A program made the translations under genes and the position numbers. A model generated the notes under the pieces. The model was not told the origin of the DNA. It ran no database searches and saw only the letters and a list, made by a program, of their open reading frames with translations. Below are positions 39,590 to 47,259 of a stretch of DNA of 64,000 nucleotides, one piece after another (position 1 is the stretch's first letter; each line of letters opens with the position of its first letter). Source of the stretch: Leifsonia sp. PS1209 (GTDB lineage Bacteria > Actinomycetota > Actinomycetes > Actinomycetales > Microbacteriaceae); assembly GCF_012317045.1 (NCBI RefSeq), contig NZ_CP051154.1, forward strand, positions 1,550,001 to 1,614,000. The letters run 5' to 3'.

Positions 39590-39666
39590 TGGTTGCGGGG
39601 GCAGGATTTGAACCTACGACCTCTGGGTTATGAGCCCAGCGAGCTACCGAGCTGCTCCACCCCGCG
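39590..39666 (-). tRNA. Initiator tRNA-fMet (CAT)
   Basis: 77 nt with encoded CCA. The acceptor stem is CGCGGGG/CCCCGCA, which leaves the C1-A72 mismatch that marks bacterial initiators. D arm GAGCAGCTCGGTAGCTC, anticodon loop CTCATAA with anticodon CAT, three G:C pairs at the base of the anticodon stem (GGG/CCC), and T loop GGTTCAAATCC. Elongator Met tRNAs lack these two signs, so this should be the initiator. Confidence 0.95.
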
Positions 39667-39836: not shown

Positions 39837-40922
39837 ATGCCGAGTTCGCTTCAGAAGTACCGGGTCTGCGTGATCGAAGACGATCCGGATGTCGCCTTCT
39901 ACATGAAGACCGTGCTGGAGAAGCGCGCGGATGCGTCGGTCATCGCGATCACCGATCCGTCGAAGGCGCTGGCCGCCATCGCCGACTTCGAGCCGGACCT
40001 CGTGCTCACCGACATCGAGATGCCCGGCATCTCCGGCCTCGACCTGCTCAAGGAGCTGCGCAACCAGTATCCCGGGATGCCCGTCGTCGTGATGACGGCG
40101 CACGTCTCGGTCGACTACGCCGTGTCCGCGCTGCGGGCGCAGGCGGACGAGTTCCTGACCAAGCCGGTCTCCTCCGCCGACCTGGTGTCCATCGTGACGC
40201 GGCTCGCCGAGCAGGGGCGCACCAAGAAGGCCGCACAGCGTCCGCAGGTGGTGCTGGCAATCGGCGCGCATCCCGACGATGTCGAGATCGGCGTCGGCGG
40301 CATCCTCTCCGCCCACCGGGATGCCGGCAACACCGTGGTCATCCTCACCATGTCGAGAGGTGCCAGGGGAGGGGATGCGGACGACAGGCAGCACGAGTCG
40401 CTCGCCTCCGCCGAACTGCTCGGCGCCCGCCTGTTCATGGAGGACCTGGAGGACACGCAGATCTCCGCGGCCGACCCGACCGTCGGCATCATCGAGCGCG
40501 TCGTCGCCGAGGTGCAGCCGGACATCGTCTACACGCACTCCGCGCACGACCGCCATCAGGACCACCGCGCCGTGCACTCCGCGACCCTGGTGGCCACGCG
40601 GTCGGTGCGCACGGTCTGCTGCTATCAGAGCCCGTCGGCGACGATCGACTACCGGCCGACCCGGTTCGTGCCGATAGATGGTTTCACAGACGCGAAACTG
40701 CGCCTGATCGACTGCTTCCGGTCGCAGACCGAGCTCCGCTCCTACCTCGAACCCGATTTCGTGCTCGCCACGGCGCGCTACTGGTCGCGGTTCGGCGGAG
40801 GGCAGAGCTGCGAGCCGCTCGAAGTGATCAAAGACACCGCCGACATCTCGGTGCCCGCATCGTCCCTGACGACGGACGCCAGGACGAGAGCGAAAGAAAT
40901 GGATAGAGGAACAGAGAAGTGA
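39837..40922 (+). CDS. Response-regulator receiver / PIG-L deacetylase fusion
   Basis: A 361-residue two-domain protein. Residues 8-125 are a CheY-like receiver: acidic pair Asp15-Asp16, phospho-acceptor Asp59 (LVLTDIEMPG), Thr87, and Lys109 (FLTKP). Residues 137-330 are a PIG-L/LmbE deacetylase: AIGAHPDDVEIG (His145, Asp147, Asp148), then His234 and HDRHQDH at 237-243, the zinc and catalytic residues. No DNA-binding domain. The reading is continuous, with no sign of a frameshift. The family removes acetyl from N-acetyl-sugar conjugates (MshB, BshB, PIG-L), so phosphorylation presumably switches enzyme activity. First gene of a seven-gene operon with a sensor kinase; GGGAGG RBS. Confidence 0.85.
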   Translation: MPSSLQKYRVCVIEDDPDVAFYMKTVLEKRADASVIAITDPSKALAAIADFEPDLVLTDIEMPGISGLDLLKELRNQYPGMPVVVMTAHVSVDYAVSALRAQADEFLTKPVSSADLVSIVTRLAEQGRTKKAAQRPQVVLAIGAHPDDVEIGVGGILSAHRDAGNTVVILTMSRGARGGDADDRQHESLASAELLGARLFMEDLEDTQISAADPTVGIIERVVAEVQPDIVYTHSAHDRHQDHRAVHSATLVATRSVRTVCCYQSPSATIDYRPTRFVPIDGFTDAKLRLIDCFRSQTELRSYLEPDFVLATARYWSRFGGGQSCEPLEVIKDTADISVPASSLTTDARTRAKEMDRGTEK

Positions 40923-41920
40923 CCCGTGTTCTCGTGACAGGCGCAGGCGGCCCAGCCGGTGTCGCCGTCATCCGCTCCCTGCTGGCCCGCGACGACGTGC
41001 AGGTGCTCGCCGCCGACATGGACGGCTGGGCGAGCGGCCTCTACCTCGTCGACGCCGCCGACCGGCGCATCGTGCCGGCCGGGAAGTCCGCAGGATTCGT
41101 CGACGAACTGATCAGGTTGTGCGAGGCGGACGGCATCGACGTCCTGTTCTCGACGGTCGACGTCGAGCTGCCCGGCCTCGCAGCCCGGCGCGACGACCTG
41201 CTCGCCGTCGGAACGGCGCTCGCCGCCCCCAGCATCGAGACGCTGACTGTCTGCCTCGACAAGTACCTCCTCGCCGAGCGCTGCGCCGGGTCGCTCGCCG
41301 TTCCGGAGACGCGGCTGCTGAACGCGGACGGCGTCGCGCACGACTGGACCTTCCCCGTCATCATCAAGCCGCGCAGCGGGGCGGGCTCCCGCGGCGTCCG
41401 CCTCATCCCCGATCGCGAGACGCTCGAGTCGCTCGGCACGGACGAGAGCATCCTGATCCAGGAGAACCTGCCCGGCGACGAGTTCTCCGTCGACGTGCTC
41501 GCTGCACTCGACGGCAGCGTGATCGCCGCCGTTCCGCGCTCGCGCGAACGTGTCGACTCCGGGGTGTCCATCGCGGGTCGCACCGTGAAGCGCGACGAGC
41601 TCTCCCGCACGGCGGCCGACGTGGCACGCGCGATCGGGCTCACTGGAGTGGCGAATGTGCAGCTGCGGTACAGCACGGCGGGCATCCCGGCCCTGCTGGA
41701 GGTGAACCCGCGCTTCCCCGGCGCGATGCCGCTCACCATCGCTGCCGGTGTCGACATGCCGTCGCTGCTGCTCGACCTGGTCACCGGTGTCGGCGCACCC
41801 GCAACGGTCGACTTCGTCGAGCTGGCGAACGTGCGCTTCCTCGAAGACGTGTTCCTCGACCCGTCCGACGTCCTCGTGTCCGAGAACGCCGCCCACGCGG
41901 AAGGCCCGGGCGAGGAGTGA
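40919..41920 (+). CDS. ATP-grasp ligase (CarB-like)
   Basis: A 333-residue enzyme. The N-terminal Rossmann-like part begins RVLVTGAGGPAGVAVIRSL; the ATP-grasp core has FPVIIKPRSGAGSRGVRLI (nucleotide-binding lysine), a central ILIQENLPGDEFSVDVLA, and the Mg2+ site LLEVNPRFPGAMPLTI. It forms an amide or related bond between a carboxylate and an amine by way of an acyl phosphate; the substrate is unknown. Similar stand-alone ligases occur in polysaccharide and amino-sugar modification loci, often with PIG-L. GTG start overlaps the PIG-L stop by 4 nt. Confidence 0.82.
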   Translation: MTRVLVTGAGGPAGVAVIRSLLARDDVQVLAADMDGWASGLYLVDAADRRIVPAGKSAGFVDELIRLCEADGIDVLFSTVDVELPGLAARRDDLLAVGTALAAPSIETLTVCLDKYLLAERCAGSLAVPETRLLNADGVAHDWTFPVIIKPRSGAGSRGVRLIPDRETLESLGTDESILIQENLPGDEFSVDVLAALDGSVIAAVPRSRERVDSGVSIAGRTVKRDELSRTAADVARAIGLTGVANVQLRYSTAGIPALLEVNPRFPGAMPLTIAAGVDMPSLLLDLVTGVGAPATVDFVELANVRFLEDVFLDPSDVLVSENAAHAEGPGEE

Positions 41921-42714
41921 CGACGGCCCCGCGCGAGCTGCTGCTCGGCGACTACCACGTCCACTCCACCTTCTCCGACGACGCGGTCAGCACTCTCGCG
42001 GAGAACCTCGCCGCCGCGGAGGCCGCCGGTCTCCGCGAGCTGCGGCTGATCGACCACGTGCGGGCGTCGACCACCTGGGTGCCCGAGTTCGTCCGCGCCG
42101 TCGCGGCCGAGCGCATCCCGAGCGGTCTCACGGTGTTCACGGGGGTGGAGACGAAGCTGCTGGATGCGTCCGGTGCCGTCGACACGCCGCCCGGCCTGAT
42201 CGTCGGAGGCGACGGCGGGGTCGACGCCATCGTGATCGGCGACCACCAGTTCCCCGGCACGGACGGCCCGTGGTCGCCGCGCGAGACGACAGAGCGCCTG
42301 GCGGCGGGACTCTCGGCGGACGACGCACTGGATCAGCTGGTCACAGCGAGCATCCTGGCCATGCAGCGCACGCCGAACGCGCAGCTGGCGCACTGGTTCT
42401 CGATCCTGCCCAAGGTGGGCCTGTCGGAGGACCAGCTGGGCGCCGACCGGCTCTCCGCCTGGGCGGAGTCGGCGGCACGCACGGGCACGATCGTCGAGGT
42501 CAACGAGAAGTGGGCGTGTCCCGGTCCGGAGGCCGTCGCGGCCCTGATCGCGGCCGGTGCACGCATCGTCGCGTCGACGGACAGCCACGACGCGGCGGAC
42601 GTCGGCCGCTACGAACGTGTGGCGCACATCCTGGACGACGCCTATCGTCGTTCCCAGGACGACGTCGAACGAGAACGAGCACGAGCACGAGCAGCCAGGG
42701 AGGAGGACCGATGA
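41917..42714 (+). CDS. PHP-domain hydrolase
   Basis: A 265-residue PHP phosphoesterase: GDYHVHSTFSDDAVSTL, LRLIDHVR, TVFTGVETKLLD, DAIVIGDHQF, and the closing VASTDSHDAADVGRY, which supply the metal ligands. It is closest in pattern to histidinol-phosphatase-like PHP proteins, but it sits far from any his gene, so a sugar-phosphate or nucleotide substrate is as likely. A GTGA overlap joins it to the ATP-grasp gene, and ATGA to the next small gene. Confidence 0.8.
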   Translation: MTTAPRELLLGDYHVHSTFSDDAVSTLAENLAAAEAAGLRELRLIDHVRASTTWVPEFVRAVAAERIPSGLTVFTGVETKLLDASGAVDTPPGLIVGGDGGVDAIVIGDHQFPGTDGPWSPRETTERLAAGLSADDALDQLVTASILAMQRTPNAQLAHWFSILPKVGLSEDQLGADRLSAWAESAARTGTIVEVNEKWACPGPEAVAALIAAGARIVASTDSHDAADVGRYERVAHILDDAYRRSQDDVERERARARAAREEDR

Positions 42715-42866
42715 GTCCCATCCAGATCGACAGTGAGACGTACGACGAGATCCAGCGCGAGATCGACGCGAACAAGCGCTGGGAGTTCCGTCTGCTGCCG
42801 TACGCGGGGATCGCGCTGGTCGTGCTGGCCGCGATCGTCGTGGTGCGCACGGTGTTCCTCACGTGA
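42711..42866 (+). CDS. 51-residue single-pass membrane protein
   Basis: MSPIQIDSETYDEIQREID begins a charged cytoplasmic helix, followed by NKRWEFRLLPY and one membrane helix (AGIALVVLAAIVVVRTVFL) that ends the protein. It overlaps the PHP stop (ATGA) and the next GTG (GTGA) and has the excellent RBS AGGAGG 4 nt upstream, so translation is well supported although no family is known to me. It may anchor or modulate the adjacent kinase or regulators. Confidence 0.75.
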   Translation: MSPIQIDSETYDEIQREIDANKRWEFRLLPYAGIALVVLAAIVVVRTVFLT

Positions 42867-43258
42867 GCAGCGCAGGCGTTCCGAGGGTCGTCATCGCCGA
42901 TGACGACGACGACATCCGTGGGCTGATGCAGATCGCCGCGCGCCGCGCGGGCGTCGAGGTGGTCGCGGCCGTCGACAACGGTCCGGCGGCGCTCGACGCC
43001 GTGCGGGCGGGCGGGATCGACCTCGTGGTCCTCGACATCTCGATGCCGGGGATGAACGGGGTGGAGGTGGCTGAGGCGGTCAGGGCCGATCCGGTCGCCA
43101 GCGCGACGCTCATCCTGATGGTCTCCGCGTCCGTGCAACTGCTCACCGACCACGGCGTCGTCGCCGAACGATCGGACAGCTTCATCATCAAGCCGTTCAG
43201 CCCCAAGGTCCTCACCGCGCGGATCCGGCAGATGCTCGGGATGGAGGCGACGGTATGA
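42863..43258 (+). CDS. Single-domain response regulator
   Basis: A 131-residue receiver with no output domain. Acidic pocket VVIADDDDDI, phospho-acceptor Asp58 (LVVLDISMPGMNG), Ser in LMVSAS and Lys110 (FIIKPFSP). It may act as a phosphate sink or intermediate between the sensor kinase and the receiver-PIG-L fusion, or on a protein partner. Overlaps the kinase gene by ATGA. Confidence 0.88.
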   Translation: MSSAGVPRVVIADDDDDIRGLMQIAARRAGVEVVAAVDNGPAALDAVRAGGIDLVVLDISMPGMNGVEVAEAVRADPVASATLILMVSASVQLLTDHGVVAERSDSFIIKPFSPKVLTARIRQMLGMEATV

Positions 43259-45018
43259 CCCTCGATCGCTGGCTCGGCAGGATCTCGCTCGACTCTCCCA
43301 CCCCGTTCGTCAAGCAGCTTCCGACGATCATCGGCTTCCTGATCGCCATCGGCGTCATCCTGCTCCCTGTGAGCCCGTGGCCGACGGAGCCGCTCTACTT
43401 CACGATCGGAGTCGTGCTCGCCGCCCTGGCGAGCATTCTGTCGTTCGCCCTTCCGTGGAAGAAGATCCGCACGGAGTGGTCGATCCTCATCCCGGTGGTG
43501 TCGCTGATCGCGGTCGGCCTGTTCCGTCTGGGGACAGGCGGGTCGACCTCGCCGTACGGGGCGCTGATCCTGCTGCCGTTCGTGTGGATCGCGACGGAGG
43601 AGGGCAGGATCAACGCCGTGATCGCGGCGCTCGGCACGTTCCTCGTGCTCCTCGCCCCGCTCATCTCGACCTCGGTGCCCAGCACGGTCGGCGACCTGGT
43701 GCGCGCGTTCTTCTCCCCGCTCATCTACATGATCGTCGCCGTCGTGATCAACGAGATCGCGCACAGGGTGAGGGTGCAACTCGCCGCAGCGAACGAGGCG
43801 GCGAAGCTCCGCAAGGAACTGCTCGAGCAGGCCGTGCACGCGCAGGACGAGCTGGTGCTCAACGAGGCTCGCCTCAAGACGGCCAACCGGCTCATCCAGA
43901 GCATCTGGAACGCCGTGACGGAGCAGTCCGTGATCGGCACGGACCTCGACGGGCTGATCGACGTCTGGAACCCCGGCGCGGAGAAGATGCTCGGGTTGAC
44001 CGAGAAGCAGGCGCTCGACGGCCGGCGCCACATCATCGACTTCCACCTGGCCTCCGAGCTGGAGGAGCGCCTGCGCGCGATGGACGCGCGCGTGCAGACC
44101 GTGTCCAGCGCAGAGGACTTCTCCGCCCTGGTGGATGCTGTCCGCTCCGGCTACGCGGACGTGCGCGACTGGACCTATGTGCGCCCGGACGGCAAGCAGG
44201 TGCCCGTGCAGGTGGCCGCGACCCCGCGCCTGGACGAGAACGGCCACAGGGTCGGCTTCATCTTCGTGGCGACGGACATGACCCAGGCCCGCGAGTTCGC
44301 GCGGCTCAAGGACGAGTTCGTCGGCCTCATCTCGCACGAGCTGCGCACGCCGCTCAGCTCGATCCTCGGCTATCTGGAACTGATGCGCGACGACGAGGAC
44401 GACCCGCTCTCGCAGGAGCAGCTGCAGTACCTCGGCGTCGCGGAGCGCAACGCGCACCGCCTGCTGCGGCTGGTCGGCGACCTGCTGTTCACGGCGCAGG
44501 TGGAGTCCGGCCGGTTCCCGCTGGAGCACAAGGACGTCGACCTCGGCCCGCTGATCGCGGCCTCCGTCGAGTCGGCCGGCCCCGTGGCGGCCAACGCCGG
44601 GATCGCCCTGGCCGCCGAGTTCCCGGATGAGCCGGTGACGATGTTCGGCGACCCTGTGCGCATCGGCCAGTCCGTCGACAACCTCGTCTCCAACGCCATC
44701 AAGTTCACCCCGTCCGGCGGCACGGTCACCGTGACGCTGTCCAGGGACGGAGGGGACGCGGTGATCGCGGTCAGCGACACCGGCATCGGGATCCCGGCCG
44801 TCGAGCTCGGGCAGCTGTCCAACCGGTTCTTCCGCGCATCCACCGCCACCCGCAACGCCGTGCCGGGCGTCGGACTGGGGTTGACGATCACGAAGGCCAT
44901 CGTCACCGCCCACGGCGGAAGCATCGACATCGCCAGCGAGGAGGGCGTCGGCACCACCATCAGCCTGCGCCTGCCACTCGAGGTCACGACGGATGCGGTG
45001 GTCGAGGGAGGCCGATGA
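43255..45018 (+). CDS. Membrane sensor histidine kinase with PAS domain
   Basis: A 587-residue kinase. About five to six membrane helices fill residues 20-170 with short loops, so the signal is probably sensed in the membrane. A coiled coil (VRVQLAAANEAAKLRKELL) leads to a PAS domain (about residues 215-340; VIGTDLDGLIDVWNPGAEK). HisKA has His361 in LISHELRTPL. HATPase_c has N box DNLVSNAIKFTP, G1 DTGIGIP and G2 GVGLGLTI. It is the only kinase in the operon and the natural donor for both receivers. Confidence 0.9.
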   Translation: MTLDRWLGRISLDSPTPFVKQLPTIIGFLIAIGVILLPVSPWPTEPLYFTIGVVLAALASILSFALPWKKIRTEWSILIPVVSLIAVGLFRLGTGGSTSPYGALILLPFVWIATEEGRINAVIAALGTFLVLLAPLISTSVPSTVGDLVRAFFSPLIYMIVAVVINEIAHRVRVQLAAANEAAKLRKELLEQAVHAQDELVLNEARLKTANRLIQSIWNAVTEQSVIGTDLDGLIDVWNPGAEKMLGLTEKQALDGRRHIIDFHLASELEERLRAMDARVQTVSSAEDFSALVDAVRSGYADVRDWTYVRPDGKQVPVQVAATPRLDENGHRVGFIFVATDMTQAREFARLKDEFVGLISHELRTPLSSILGYLELMRDDEDDPLSQEQLQYLGVAERNAHRLLRLVGDLLFTAQVESGRFPLEHKDVDLGPLIAASVESAGPVAANAGIALAAEFPDEPVTMFGDPVRIGQSVDNLVSNAIKFTPSGGTVTVTLSRDGGDAVIAVSDTGIGIPAVELGQLSNRFFRASTATRNAVPGVGLGLTITKAIVTAHGGSIDIASEEGVGTTISLRLPLEVTTDAVVEGGR

Positions 45019-45833
45019 TGCACGAGGCTCAGACGGTCACGGTCGCCGTGGTGCAGTTCACGCCCACCGACGACAGGGTGCACAACCGGGATGCGGTCGC
45101 CGCGTTCGTCGCGGTCGCGGCGGGCCGGGGGGCGCGGCTGGTGGTGTTCCCGGAGTACTCGTCGTACTTCGAGCATCCACTGGGCTCCGGCTTCGCACGC
45201 AACGCCGAGCCGCTCGACGGCGCGTTCGTCGGGGCGCTGGTCGAGGCCGCGCGTGAGCACCAGGTGTTCGTGGTCGCCGGGCTGGTGGAGAGCACGGAGG
45301 ACAAGCACCGGTTCTCCAACACGCTCGTCGCCGTCTCCCCGGACGGCGACGTGGTCGCCACCTACCGCAAGCAGCACCTCTACGACGCGTTCGGCGCGAG
45401 CGAGTCGGAGTGGGTGGTCCCCGGAGCGCTCGACGCACCGCAGACGTTCGACGCCGACGGGATCACTGTCGGGATGCAGACCTGTTACGACCTGCGCTTC
45501 CCCGAAGTCACCAGGCGCCTGGCCGACACGGGGGCCCAGCTGGTGCTCGTGCCGGCCGAGTGGGTGCGGGGGCCGCTGAAGGAGCAGCACTGGCGCACGC
45601 TGATTGCCGCGCGCGCCATCGAGAACACGCTGTACGTCGCAGCGGCCGACCACGCGCCGCCGATCGGCGTCGGGTCGAGCACCGTCGTGGACCCGATGGG
45701 CGTCGCGCTCGCGACGATCGGGGAGACCACCGGAGTGGCCGTCGCCGAGGTCGACGCCGAACGCGTGCGCTCCGTCCGGGAGCTCAATCCGGCCCTCGCG
45801 CTCCGCCGCTACCGGGTGGAGCCGATCGACTGA
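45015..45833 (+). CDS. Nitrilase-superfamily carbon-nitrogen hydrolase
   Basis: A 272-residue enzyme with the triad Glu47 (VVFPEYSSY), Lys119 (YRKQHLYDAFG) and Cys157 (QTCYDLRFPE). The pattern matches the Nit/omega-amidase-like branch, which hydrolyses amides such as deaminated glutathione or alpha-ketoglutaramate. ATGA overlap with the kinase gene makes it the seventh gene of the operon. Its chemistry (breaking an amide) is the reverse of the ATP-grasp ligase's, which may be meaningful. Confidence 0.85.
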   Translation: MMHEAQTVTVAVVQFTPTDDRVHNRDAVAAFVAVAAGRGARLVVFPEYSSYFEHPLGSGFARNAEPLDGAFVGALVEAAREHQVFVVAGLVESTEDKHRFSNTLVAVSPDGDVVATYRKQHLYDAFGASESEWVVPGALDAPQTFDADGITVGMQTCYDLRFPEVTRRLADTGAQLVLVPAEWVRGPLKEQHWRTLIAARAIENTLYVAAADHAPPIGVGSSTVVDPMGVALATIGETTGVAVAEVDAERVRSVRELNPALALRRYRVEPID

Positions 45834-45858: not shown

Positions 45859-45909
45859 GGTCAGTGTCGCAGCCCGGTCAGCGTCGCAGCCTGGTCAGCG
45901 TCGCAGCCC
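45859..45909. repeat. Three tandem 17-bp repeats at the aminotransferase 3' end
   Basis: GGTCAGYGTCGCAGCCY occurs three times head-to-tail (45859, 45876, 45893). The last copy contains the minus-strand TGA stop and the last codons of the aminotransferase gene. The 61 bp between the convergent nitrilase and aminotransferase genes hold little else. Confidence 0.75.
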
Positions 45910-47091
45910 GGCGAGCTGGGCGGCCGCCCGCTCGAGCACCTCGGTGCGCTTGCAGAACGCGAACCGGACGAGGGATGCGGTCCGCGCCCGGTACTCGTCC
46001 GTGCAGAACGCGGACAGCGGCACGGCCACCACCCCGGCGAGGTGCGGCAGTTCGCGGCAGAACCGCACGGCGTCGTCGAAGCCGAGCGGGGCGGCGTCCG
46101 CCACCACGAAATACGTTCCGTCGGAGTTCGCGACACCGAAGCCGGCCTCGCGCAGGCCGGCCGACAGCAGGTCCTTCTTGCTCCGGAGGGTCTCTGCGAT
46201 GCCGGTGAAGTAGTCGTCGCCCAGCCGGAGCCCGGCCGCGATGGCCGGCTGGAAGGGTGCGCCGTTCACGTAGGTGAGGAACTGCTTCACGGCGAGGATC
46301 GCGGTGACGAGCTCGGCCGGGGCGGTGAGCCAGCCGATCTTCCAGCCCGTGGTGTTGAACGTCTTCCCTCCCGACGAGATCGTCACCGTGCGCTCTCGTG
46401 CACCCGGCAGCGTGGCGATGGGGACGTGGGGGAGACCGAAGGTGAGGTGCTCGTACACCTCGTCGGTGACAATGATGGCGTCGTGCTCGTGCGCCAGCTC
46501 GACGATCGTGCGCAGCACCTCGGCGCCGAGCACGGTGCCCGTCGGGTTGTGCGGCGTGTTCACGAGGATGATCCTGGTGCGGTCGGTGACCGCATCCCGC
46601 AGCTCGTCGAGGTCGGGCTGGAAGTCGGGCAGCCGCAGCGGCACCGTGCGGTGCCTGCCGTCCGCGAGGCCGATGAGGCCGCCGTATGCGTCGTAGAACG
46701 GCTCGAAGGTGACGACCTCGTCGCCCGGCTGCAGGAGGGCGAGCAGGGTGGCGGCGATGGCCTCCGTCGCCCCAGCTGTCACGAGCACCTCGCGGTCCGG
46801 GTCGACGGTGAGGCCGTAGAAGCGCTGCTGGTGCTCGGCGATGGCGAGCCGCAGCTCGGGGATGCCGATGCCCGGCGGGTACTGGTTCCTGCCGTCCCGG
46901 ATGGCGGAGACGGCCACGTCGAGGACCTCGGCGGGCCCGTCCTCGTCCGGGAAGCCCTGGCCGAGGTTGATCGCGCCGGTGCGCACGGCGAGCGCGCTCA
47001 TCTCGGCGAACACCGTCGAGGCGATCGTCCCGTCCGCCCCGAGCAGCCCGGCGCCGCTCGCCGCCCGTCTCCACGCGCCTGGCACCGTCAT
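45895..47091 (-). CDS. Class I/II PLP-dependent aminotransferase
   Basis: A 398-residue fold-type I aminotransferase. INLGQGFPDEDGP, QYPPGIGIPELR, TAGATEAIAAT, VNTPHNPTGTV, the PLP aspartate region VTDEVYEHL, the Schiff-base lysine in ISSGGKTFNTTGWKIGW, and a C-terminal Arg segment VRFAFCK. The Q-Y-P-P-G-I-G and GGKTFNTTGWK patterns are those of the methionine/kynurenine aminotransferase (YbdL/KAT-like) group. ATG at 47091 follows AGAGGA by 8 nt. Divergent from htrA. Confidence 0.87.
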   Translation of the reverse strand: MTVPGAWRRAASGAGLLGADGTIASTVFAEMSALAVRTGAINLGQGFPDEDGPAEVLDVAVSAIRDGRNQYPPGIGIPELRLAIAEHQQRFYGLTVDPDREVLVTAGATEAIAATLLALLQPGDEVVTFEPFYDAYGGLIGLADGRHRTVPLRLPDFQPDLDELRDAVTDRTRIILVNTPHNPTGTVLGAEVLRTIVELAHEHDAIIVTDEVYEHLTFGLPHVPIATLPGARERTVTISSGGKTFNTTGWKIGWLTAPAELVTAILAVKQFLTYVNGAPFQPAIAAGLRLGDDYFTGIAETLRSKKDLLSAGLREAGFGVANSDGTYFVVADAAPLGFDDAVRFCRELPHLAGVVAVPLSAFCTDEYRARTASLVRFAFCKRTEVLERAAAQLAGLRR

Positions 47092-47120
47092 GGTCACGTC
47101 CTCTCGCCGTCCTGCCTCCC

Positions 47121-47126
47121 AACCTA
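47121..47126 (-). promoter_or_regulatory. -10 box of the aminotransferase gene
   Basis: Minus-strand TAGGTT (47126-47121), about 29 nt before the ATG. In the same divergent region TTGACA at 47172-47177 (+) looks like a -35, but no -10 at the right distance is visible for htrA. Confidence 0.3.
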
Positions 47127-47259
47127 CGGGGTGTCGGTCACCGGATGCATTCGGTACGTTGTGCAGAGTCATTGACAGGCAGTAGCTCGTCCACAGGGGC
47201 CGCAAATAGAACACCCAGGTTCGCATCCCAAGCTGTCAGTGCTTGGAAGGAGCAACACC

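Follow-up and report, generated by a model that had tools for sequence, protein, structure and literature searches.

What does an operon do if it joins a two-component phosphorelay to a set of enzymes and encodes no DNA-binding output? The question is raised by seven open reading frames (ORFs) on the + strand at positions 39837-45833 of a 64,000-nucleotide stretch of Leifsonia sp. PS1209 (contig NZ_CP051154.1, positions 1,550,001 to 1,614,000; the whole stretch is referred to here as the window, and the window genome is a single 4.09-Mb contig). We found that the gene set spans several phyla and that many relatives of the operon include a gene for a membrane glycosyltransferase (GT2) that is missing from this place in the window. 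We think it on balance probable that the genes specify a post-translationally controlled glycan pathway, with synthesis by GT2, N-deacetylation, and, probably, amide decoration. This reading rests on which genes are present and in what order, on their co-distribution, on predicted folds, and on active-site motifs that are intact.

The first gene, g1 (39837..40922, + strand; ATG start, 361 aa), encodes a receiver (PF00072) fused to a PIG-L (LmbE-type) N-deacetylase (PF02585). That is, g1 has the defining feature of an enzyme-output response regulator, a receiver with a phosphorylation site fused to an enzyme domain. The phosphoacceptor is D59, and the metal-site motifs are AHPDD (144-148) and DRHQDH (238-243). 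Among 105 relatives, D59 is kept in 105, K109 in 104, H145 in 103, D148 in 104, D242 in 102, and H243 in 104. An AlphaFold 2 (AF2) model of g1 had a pLDDT of 92.5 and a pTM of 0.79. When this predicted structure was compared to solved structures, the folds nearest to the PIG-L part were BC1534, BshB, and (diacetyl)chitobiose deacetylase. The structures matched by the full-length model also included CheB, probably through the receiver. The window genome holds two other PIG-L genes besides g1. By eye, another PIG-L protein of this genome (L139:676-2622) appears to be fused to a methyltransferase-like domain.

Two more genes encode the rest of the phosphorelay. The product of g5 (42863..43258, + strand; GTG start, 131 aa) is a stand-alone receiver (PF00072, 76 bits) in which the motif DD...LDISMPG...S...KP can be read. 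The product of g6 (43255..45018, + strand; ATG start, 587 aa) is a membrane PAS sensor histidine kinase (PAS, HisKA, HATPase_c) with SHELRTPL, N, G1, and G2 boxes and N-terminal hydrophobic segments. Pfam listed no DNA-binding domain in any of the seven proteins. This agrees with a preliminary description of the sequence, in which neither of the two receivers, one alone and one fused to an enzyme, had a DNA-binding output.

We found that receiver-PIG-L genes lie in a conserved neighborhood. Loci were picked for their similarity to g1, those from named genomes being the best 80 of 545 confirmed matches, and so are not a random sample. The counts use 106 distinct loci, window included, that match at least 80% of the g1 query; 15 rows were dropped from an initial 121, which had included nine partial matches and some duplicated genomes. 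On the same strand near receiver-PIG-L, there was an ATP-grasp gene at 75 of the 106 loci, a PHP gene at 71, a GT2 gene at 64, and all three at 61. The homologs are therefore not scattered without a shared neighborhood, and the earlier claim of a conserved operon that joins two-component proteins to enzymes without a DNA-binding output is borne out by Pfam and by these counts. At 24 loci a kinase was present without ATP-grasp or GT2 on that strand, and six loci had none of these partners (L104, L112, L118, L034, L038, and L056). Some partner-poor loci sit near contig ends, and L118 carries GT2 on the other strand. Two of the six have neighbors of other kinds. On the Streptosporangiales contig of L104 (L104:2850-8971), receiver-PIG-L follows a chemosensory-type cluster with receptor-like, CheW-like, and CheR-like ORFs (by eye), and in L118 (Rhodothermales) a TPR protein next to the GT2 (L118:3116-4255) has a weak match to the PgaA export porin (31 bits; cut-off 367).

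The operon is old. Outside Actinomycetota, the best 80 of 545 matches included loci from Kangiella and other Pseudomonadota, Gemmatimonadota, Rhodothermota, Bacteroidota, and Myxococcota, and an ATP-grasp gene adjoining receiver-PIG-L reaches Pseudomonadota and Gemmatimonadota. Receiver-PIG-L adjoins both ATP-grasp and GT2 at the distant loci L109 (Kangiella), L124, L116 (Solirubrobacterales), L117 (Conexibacter), and L126 (Miltoncostaea). The distances for receiver-PIG-L, ATP-grasp, PHP, and GT2 co-vary across 60 loci (Mantel r 0.79-0.92, equalled in 0 of 999 permutations for each gene pair). At E <= 1e-25, receiver-PIG-L was found in 37 of 199 genomes of the family (31 near full length) and in 5 of 396 genomes of the phylum (3 near full length), the window genome being counted in both. 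The closest named locus among the matches listed was that of Leifsonia sp. Root227 (97%). L109 and L124, both from Pseudomonadota, have receiver-PIG-L, ATP-grasp, and GT2 without PHP. Near these two operons we noted by eye an ORF resembling a low-molecular-weight tyrosine phosphatase, a possible replacement for PHP. Beside the Kangiella operon are an ORF like a heme-NO-binding-type sensor (by eye; no match in NCBIfam) and a TPR protein (L109:8279-8824 and L109:12555-13799).

In relatives with the full set, a GT2 of ~500 aa sits between PHP and a small membrane gene. It is absent from that place in the window and in the fetched loci of the same genus (L011-L013, L047, L049, L050, and L120). The GT2 catalytic motifs are kept in 71 of 71 proteins. 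With DD, DxD, ED, and QxxRW motifs and a membrane part that aligns, these proteins have the features of processive membrane GT2s, the fold class of hyaluronan synthase (HAS), BcsA, and chitin synthase. Hyaluronan and cellulose synthases could be aligned over the length of a predicted GT2 structure; in the fold comparisons of GT2 and of the PIG-L part (VIA-align 2), a family that is absent from the matches is not thereby excluded. The best NCBIfam models for the relatives' GT2s were PgaC/IcaA and then NodC, both below cut-off. TIGR03937 gave 128.2 bits for the L009 protein and 123.7 bits for that of Kangiella L109, and its cut-off of 422.3 was not reached.

The 51-residue single-pass membrane protein encoded by g4 (42711..42866, + strand; ATG start, no Pfam family) is a probable partner of the GT2 synthase, left where relatives have GT2 and a g4-type gene. 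We suggest this because a small gene with one transmembrane segment follows the in-operon GT2, starting at its end, at 59 of 62 loci, in 57 of them with a 4-nt overlap. The misses were L101, L110, and L116. We applied one rule to six genes, with loci deduplicated by receiver-PIG-L sequence (an earlier hand-made rule had given 54 of 65). After the other genes, the rule found small hydrophobic ORFs in 0 of 105 cases for receiver-PIG-L, 0 of 72 for ATP-grasp, 1 of 80 for the kinase, 0 of 29 for the nitrilase, and 7 of 69 for PHP. Six of the seven that follow PHP are window-genus loci without an in-operon GT2. The seventh is L064, where GT2 lies in the operon, so that the rule either scored a false positive or picked up an overlap with the start of GT2. 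GT2 and a small ORF are laid out similarly in Kangiella. According to PMC7112194, PgaD and IcaD are integral membrane proteins required for full function of their glycosyltransferases.

Where, then, is the synthase in the window genome? A single close GT2, sharing 63% identity with the copy of L009, lies at G000:C1:3655287, ~2.07 Mb from the operon. No other member of the set was found in the 20 kb around it, and likewise for the unlinked GT2s of genomes G055, G125, and G178 and for an extra copy in G025. We found no such small ORF behind the unlinked GT2 of the window genus; the extra G025 copy precedes a different protein. Within the family, GT2 (E <= 1e-60) and ATP-grasp (E <= 1e-30) were present in the identical 17 of 199 genomes and in no other. 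In 13 of the 17 they co-occur because they share the operon; what is informative is the other four, all of them members of the window genus with an unlinked GT2. Of 28 genomes of that genus, all had GT2, 27 had ATP-grasp, and 27 had receiver-PIG-L. Wherever GT2 and ATP-grasp were both present (27 genomes), they were on separate contigs or no less than 1.4 Mb from each other. In two reduced genomes of the genus (G592 and G613; 2.6-2.7 Mb), ATP-grasp is in broken pieces and a GT2 match persists. The GT2 match in G613 covers part of the query only, and the receiver-PIG-L match in G592 contains a stop.

The unlinked GT2 seems to have its own history. In a tree of GT2 sequences, the second G025 copy and the unlinked copies form one group (100/100), nested in the operon GT2s of other Microbacteriaceae (100/99) and not beside the L009 and L048 copies. 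The receiver-PIG-L of L009 and L010 falls inside the window genus (96 in the Shimodaira-Hasegawa-like approximate likelihood ratio test, SH-aLRT). Because the two placements differ, these sequences suggest that the window genus probably lost the operon GT2 and kept an extra GT2 of different derivation. The genus would thus be a natural experiment, with the synthase detached and the partner gene left in place.

The remaining genes encode the other enzymes. The product of g2 (40919..41920, + strand; GTG start, 333 aa) resembles ATP-grasp carboxylate-amine ligases (PF15632, ATPgrasp_Ter, 106.8 bits). PRK12767 models match it below cut-off, its nearest solved sequence is 2pn1, and of its 29 NCBIfam matches the best 25 include no BshC or MshC model. 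The product of g3 (41917..42714, + strand; GTG start, 265 aa) is like PHP-family metal phosphoesterases (PF02811). Its only solved match is YcdX (1m65), and each of nine putative metal ligands is kept in 70-72 of 72 relatives. The product of g7 (45015..45833, + strand; ATG start, 272 aa) is a nitrilase-superfamily amidase (PF00795, CN_hydrolase). It gave 231.2 bits with NF033621 (deaminated glutathione amidase) and did not reach the cut-off of 355. A nitrilase gene lies beside receiver-PIG-L at 30 of the 106 loci, upstream in some and downstream in others, and 12 of these 30 lack ATP-grasp. The nitrilase loci whose family is known are from Microbacteriaceae. The nitrilase is therefore a family-level neighbor and no core part, and it does not belong in the enzyme set as the full member that it had been taken for.

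From this evidence we infer the identity of the sugar, the order of the steps, the substrate of the ligase, the phosphotransfer, and the switching as follows. GT2, encoded elsewhere in the window genome, and g4 would make an oligo- or polysaccharide or a glycolipid of the N-acetylglucosamine (GlcNAc) type. The PIG-L half of g1 would strip N-acetyl groups, and the ATP-grasp enzyme g2 would probably amidate the freed amine with a carboxylic acid. The PHP enzyme g3 may take phosphate off a substrate or intermediate. The kinase g6 would phosphorylate the g1 receiver, and also g5 as a second target or sink. The g1 receiver would gate its own deacetylase, as in CheB and without a transcription factor, so that phosphorylation by g6 would switch the deacetylase directly. 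It is possible, and we put this forward tentatively, that the phosphorelay sets the level of N-deacetylation of a GT2-made GlcNAc glycan, followed by amide decoration by the ATP-grasp enzyme, all without transcription, and that the operon encodes a deeply conserved, signal-gated machine for envelope glycans that belongs to Actinomycetota, has outliers in two or more further phyla, and makes a glycan yet to be described. Two points weigh against the proposed pathway. One genome of the window genus, G594, has GT2 only and is a counter-example to the co-occurrence of GT2 and ATP-grasp. In addition, the independent part of that co-occurrence may be one event.

The operon might instead specify a small-molecule cofactor or conjugate, with a mycothiol-like series of glycosyl transfer, phosphatase, deacetylase, and ligase carried out by other families and a membrane glycosyltransferase. 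We consider this unlikely. The enzyme classes do parallel mycothiol assembly. Among NCBIfam models, BshB1 (TIGR04001) fits the PIG-L half of g1 best, and the solved structures nearest to this half include BshB. However, BshB1 fell short of its cut-off, with 77.8 bits against 182.5, and none of the ligase models listed reached its own. Moreover, the glycosyltransferase belongs to the HAS/BcsA fold class of membrane GT2s and has a small, conserved membrane partner, unlike MshA and BshA, which are of the GT4 type. The preliminary description had likened the chemistry to mycothiol and bacillithiol assembly and had offered envelope modification as an alternative. The missing partner turned out to be a membrane GT2 with the hyaluronan/cellulose synthase fold, which the 51-residue protein tracks, and this favors the alternative.

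It is also rather doubtful that receiver-PIG-L and the kinase are by themselves the real unit, acting on a common substrate such as a cell-wall precursor, with ATP-grasp, PHP, and GT2 as optional neighbors that share regulation. This would fit the 24 of 106 loci at which receiver-PIG-L and the kinase are present but the operon strand carries no ATP-grasp and no GT2, and the 9 changes that the ATP-grasp label requires on the receiver-PIG-L tree. However, the distant loci L109, L124, L116, L117, and L126 keep receiver-PIG-L beside ATP-grasp and GT2, and at 5 of the 24 the opposite strand carries a diverged pair of ATP-grasp and GT2. On the operon strand of L106, L107, L111, L113, and L119, which belong to one receiver-PIG-L clade, the usual ATP-grasp and GT2 are missing, and all five loci have a second-subfamily GT2 (53-61%) and an ATP-grasp (49-53%) of the type found in L043, on the opposite strand ~2-5 kb away. 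In L043 itself (L043:7151-10301, genome G188), a receiver-less PIG-L, an ATP-grasp, and the second-subfamily GT2 are in a row. At the five loci, the L043 PIG-L as query matches only receiver-PIG-L. Receiver-less PIG-L also occurs with GT2 and ATP-grasp in L134 and L135, so that sets of these three exist without a receiver. In L134 (L134:5346-10096, genome G427), they are clustered with an ORF that by eye resembles UDP-GlcNAc 2-epimerase.

That the genes are co-transcribed for convenience and have unrelated jobs is very improbable: the nitrilase does shift between upstream and downstream and occurs at 12 loci without ATP-grasp, but gene order is conserved across phyla, the unlinked GT2 is co-distributed with the operon, and a diverged pair stands beside operons without the usual pair.

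The layout of the operon is simple. ORF coordinates and Pfam families confirmed the seven genes, their order, and the 4-nt overlaps that had been described. The overlaps occur at 6 of 6 junctions and read, in order, GTGA, GTGA, ATGA, GTGA, ATGA, and ATGA. Since 4-nt overlaps are common in actinobacterial operons, they are by themselves ordinary; it is the conserved gene set, not the overlap, that exceeds chance. The boundaries fit, because a tRNA-Met gene lies upstream (39590-39666, - strand) and a convergent ORF, aminotransferase-like by eye, lies downstream (45895-47226). A scan for sigma-70-like promoters found none, and none of 3 terminator-like sites is at the operon end. We rejected a defense system, as PADLOC matches were weak and confined to the receiver and kinase regions.

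Control of surface polysaccharides is commonly viewed as a matter of transcription or of binding of cyclic di-GMP (c-di-GMP) to the synthase complex. The latter is described in PMC7112194. If the glycan pathway proposed here is correct, a signal reaches a sugar-modifying enzyme in one step, through the fused receiver. It would also group several uncharacterized genes (PIG-L, PRK12767-type ATP-grasp, PHP, and a small transmembrane protein) around one testable pathway.

Literature searches, the results of which were covered in part, found no published description of this gene set. Several known systems share parts of its logic. Mycothiol and bacillithiol are made by glycosyl transfer, PIG-L deacetylation, and ligation to the amine, using MshA/BshA glycosyltransferases and MshC/BshC ligases, families other than those found here. 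We rejected membership in these pathways: the BshB1 cut-off is not reached, and the ligase is an ATP-grasp enzyme and not BshC or MshC. In the NodC-NodB-NodA pathway the sequence of GT2, N-deacetylation, and N-acylation is alike, and NodC is the second-best NCBIfam match to GT2. In contrast, NodB and NodA are of other families, and ligation here would be ATP-dependent.

The systems for poly-N-acetylglucosamine (PNAG; pgaABCD and icaADBC) and Streptomyces matAB have, like the operons described here, a PgaC/IcaA-like GT2 and an adjacent gene for a membrane partner (here a partner by position, found beside the in-operon GT2 at 59 of 62 loci). In PNAG systems, N-deacetylation of GlcNAc is a further step, as described in PMC7112194 and PMC5972031. 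The PNAG deacetylase (PgaB/IcaB) is of the CE4 type, whereas the only deacetylase that Pfam finds in the seven proteins is the PIG-L fused to a receiver. Moreover, the GT2s scored (L009 and Kangiella L109) are far below the PgaC cut-off, ATP-grasp and PHP are extra, and two-component proteins are encoded in the operon. We therefore rejected membership in PNAG systems on the GT2 cut-off and the CE4 deacetylase.

Escherichia coli K-12 also has PIG-L and GT2 neighbors, in yaiO-yaiX-yaiP-yaiS. YaiS is a distant homolog of the PIG-L domain (33% over 156 aa, E 2e-22), as YaiP is of GT2 (26% over 289 aa, E 1e-11), and both have other partners. That stretch has no annotated receiver, ATP-grasp, PHP, or kinase; it has an outer membrane protein (YaiO) and an interrupted acyltransferase gene. 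Both yaiP and yaiS are annotated as putative only, and the operon described here gives a lead on them. Finally, CheB and other enzyme-output response regulators have a receiver fused to a hydrolytic enzyme. In g1, the modeled fold suggests that the output is a GlcNAc-type N-deacetylase, encoded within a biosynthetic operon.

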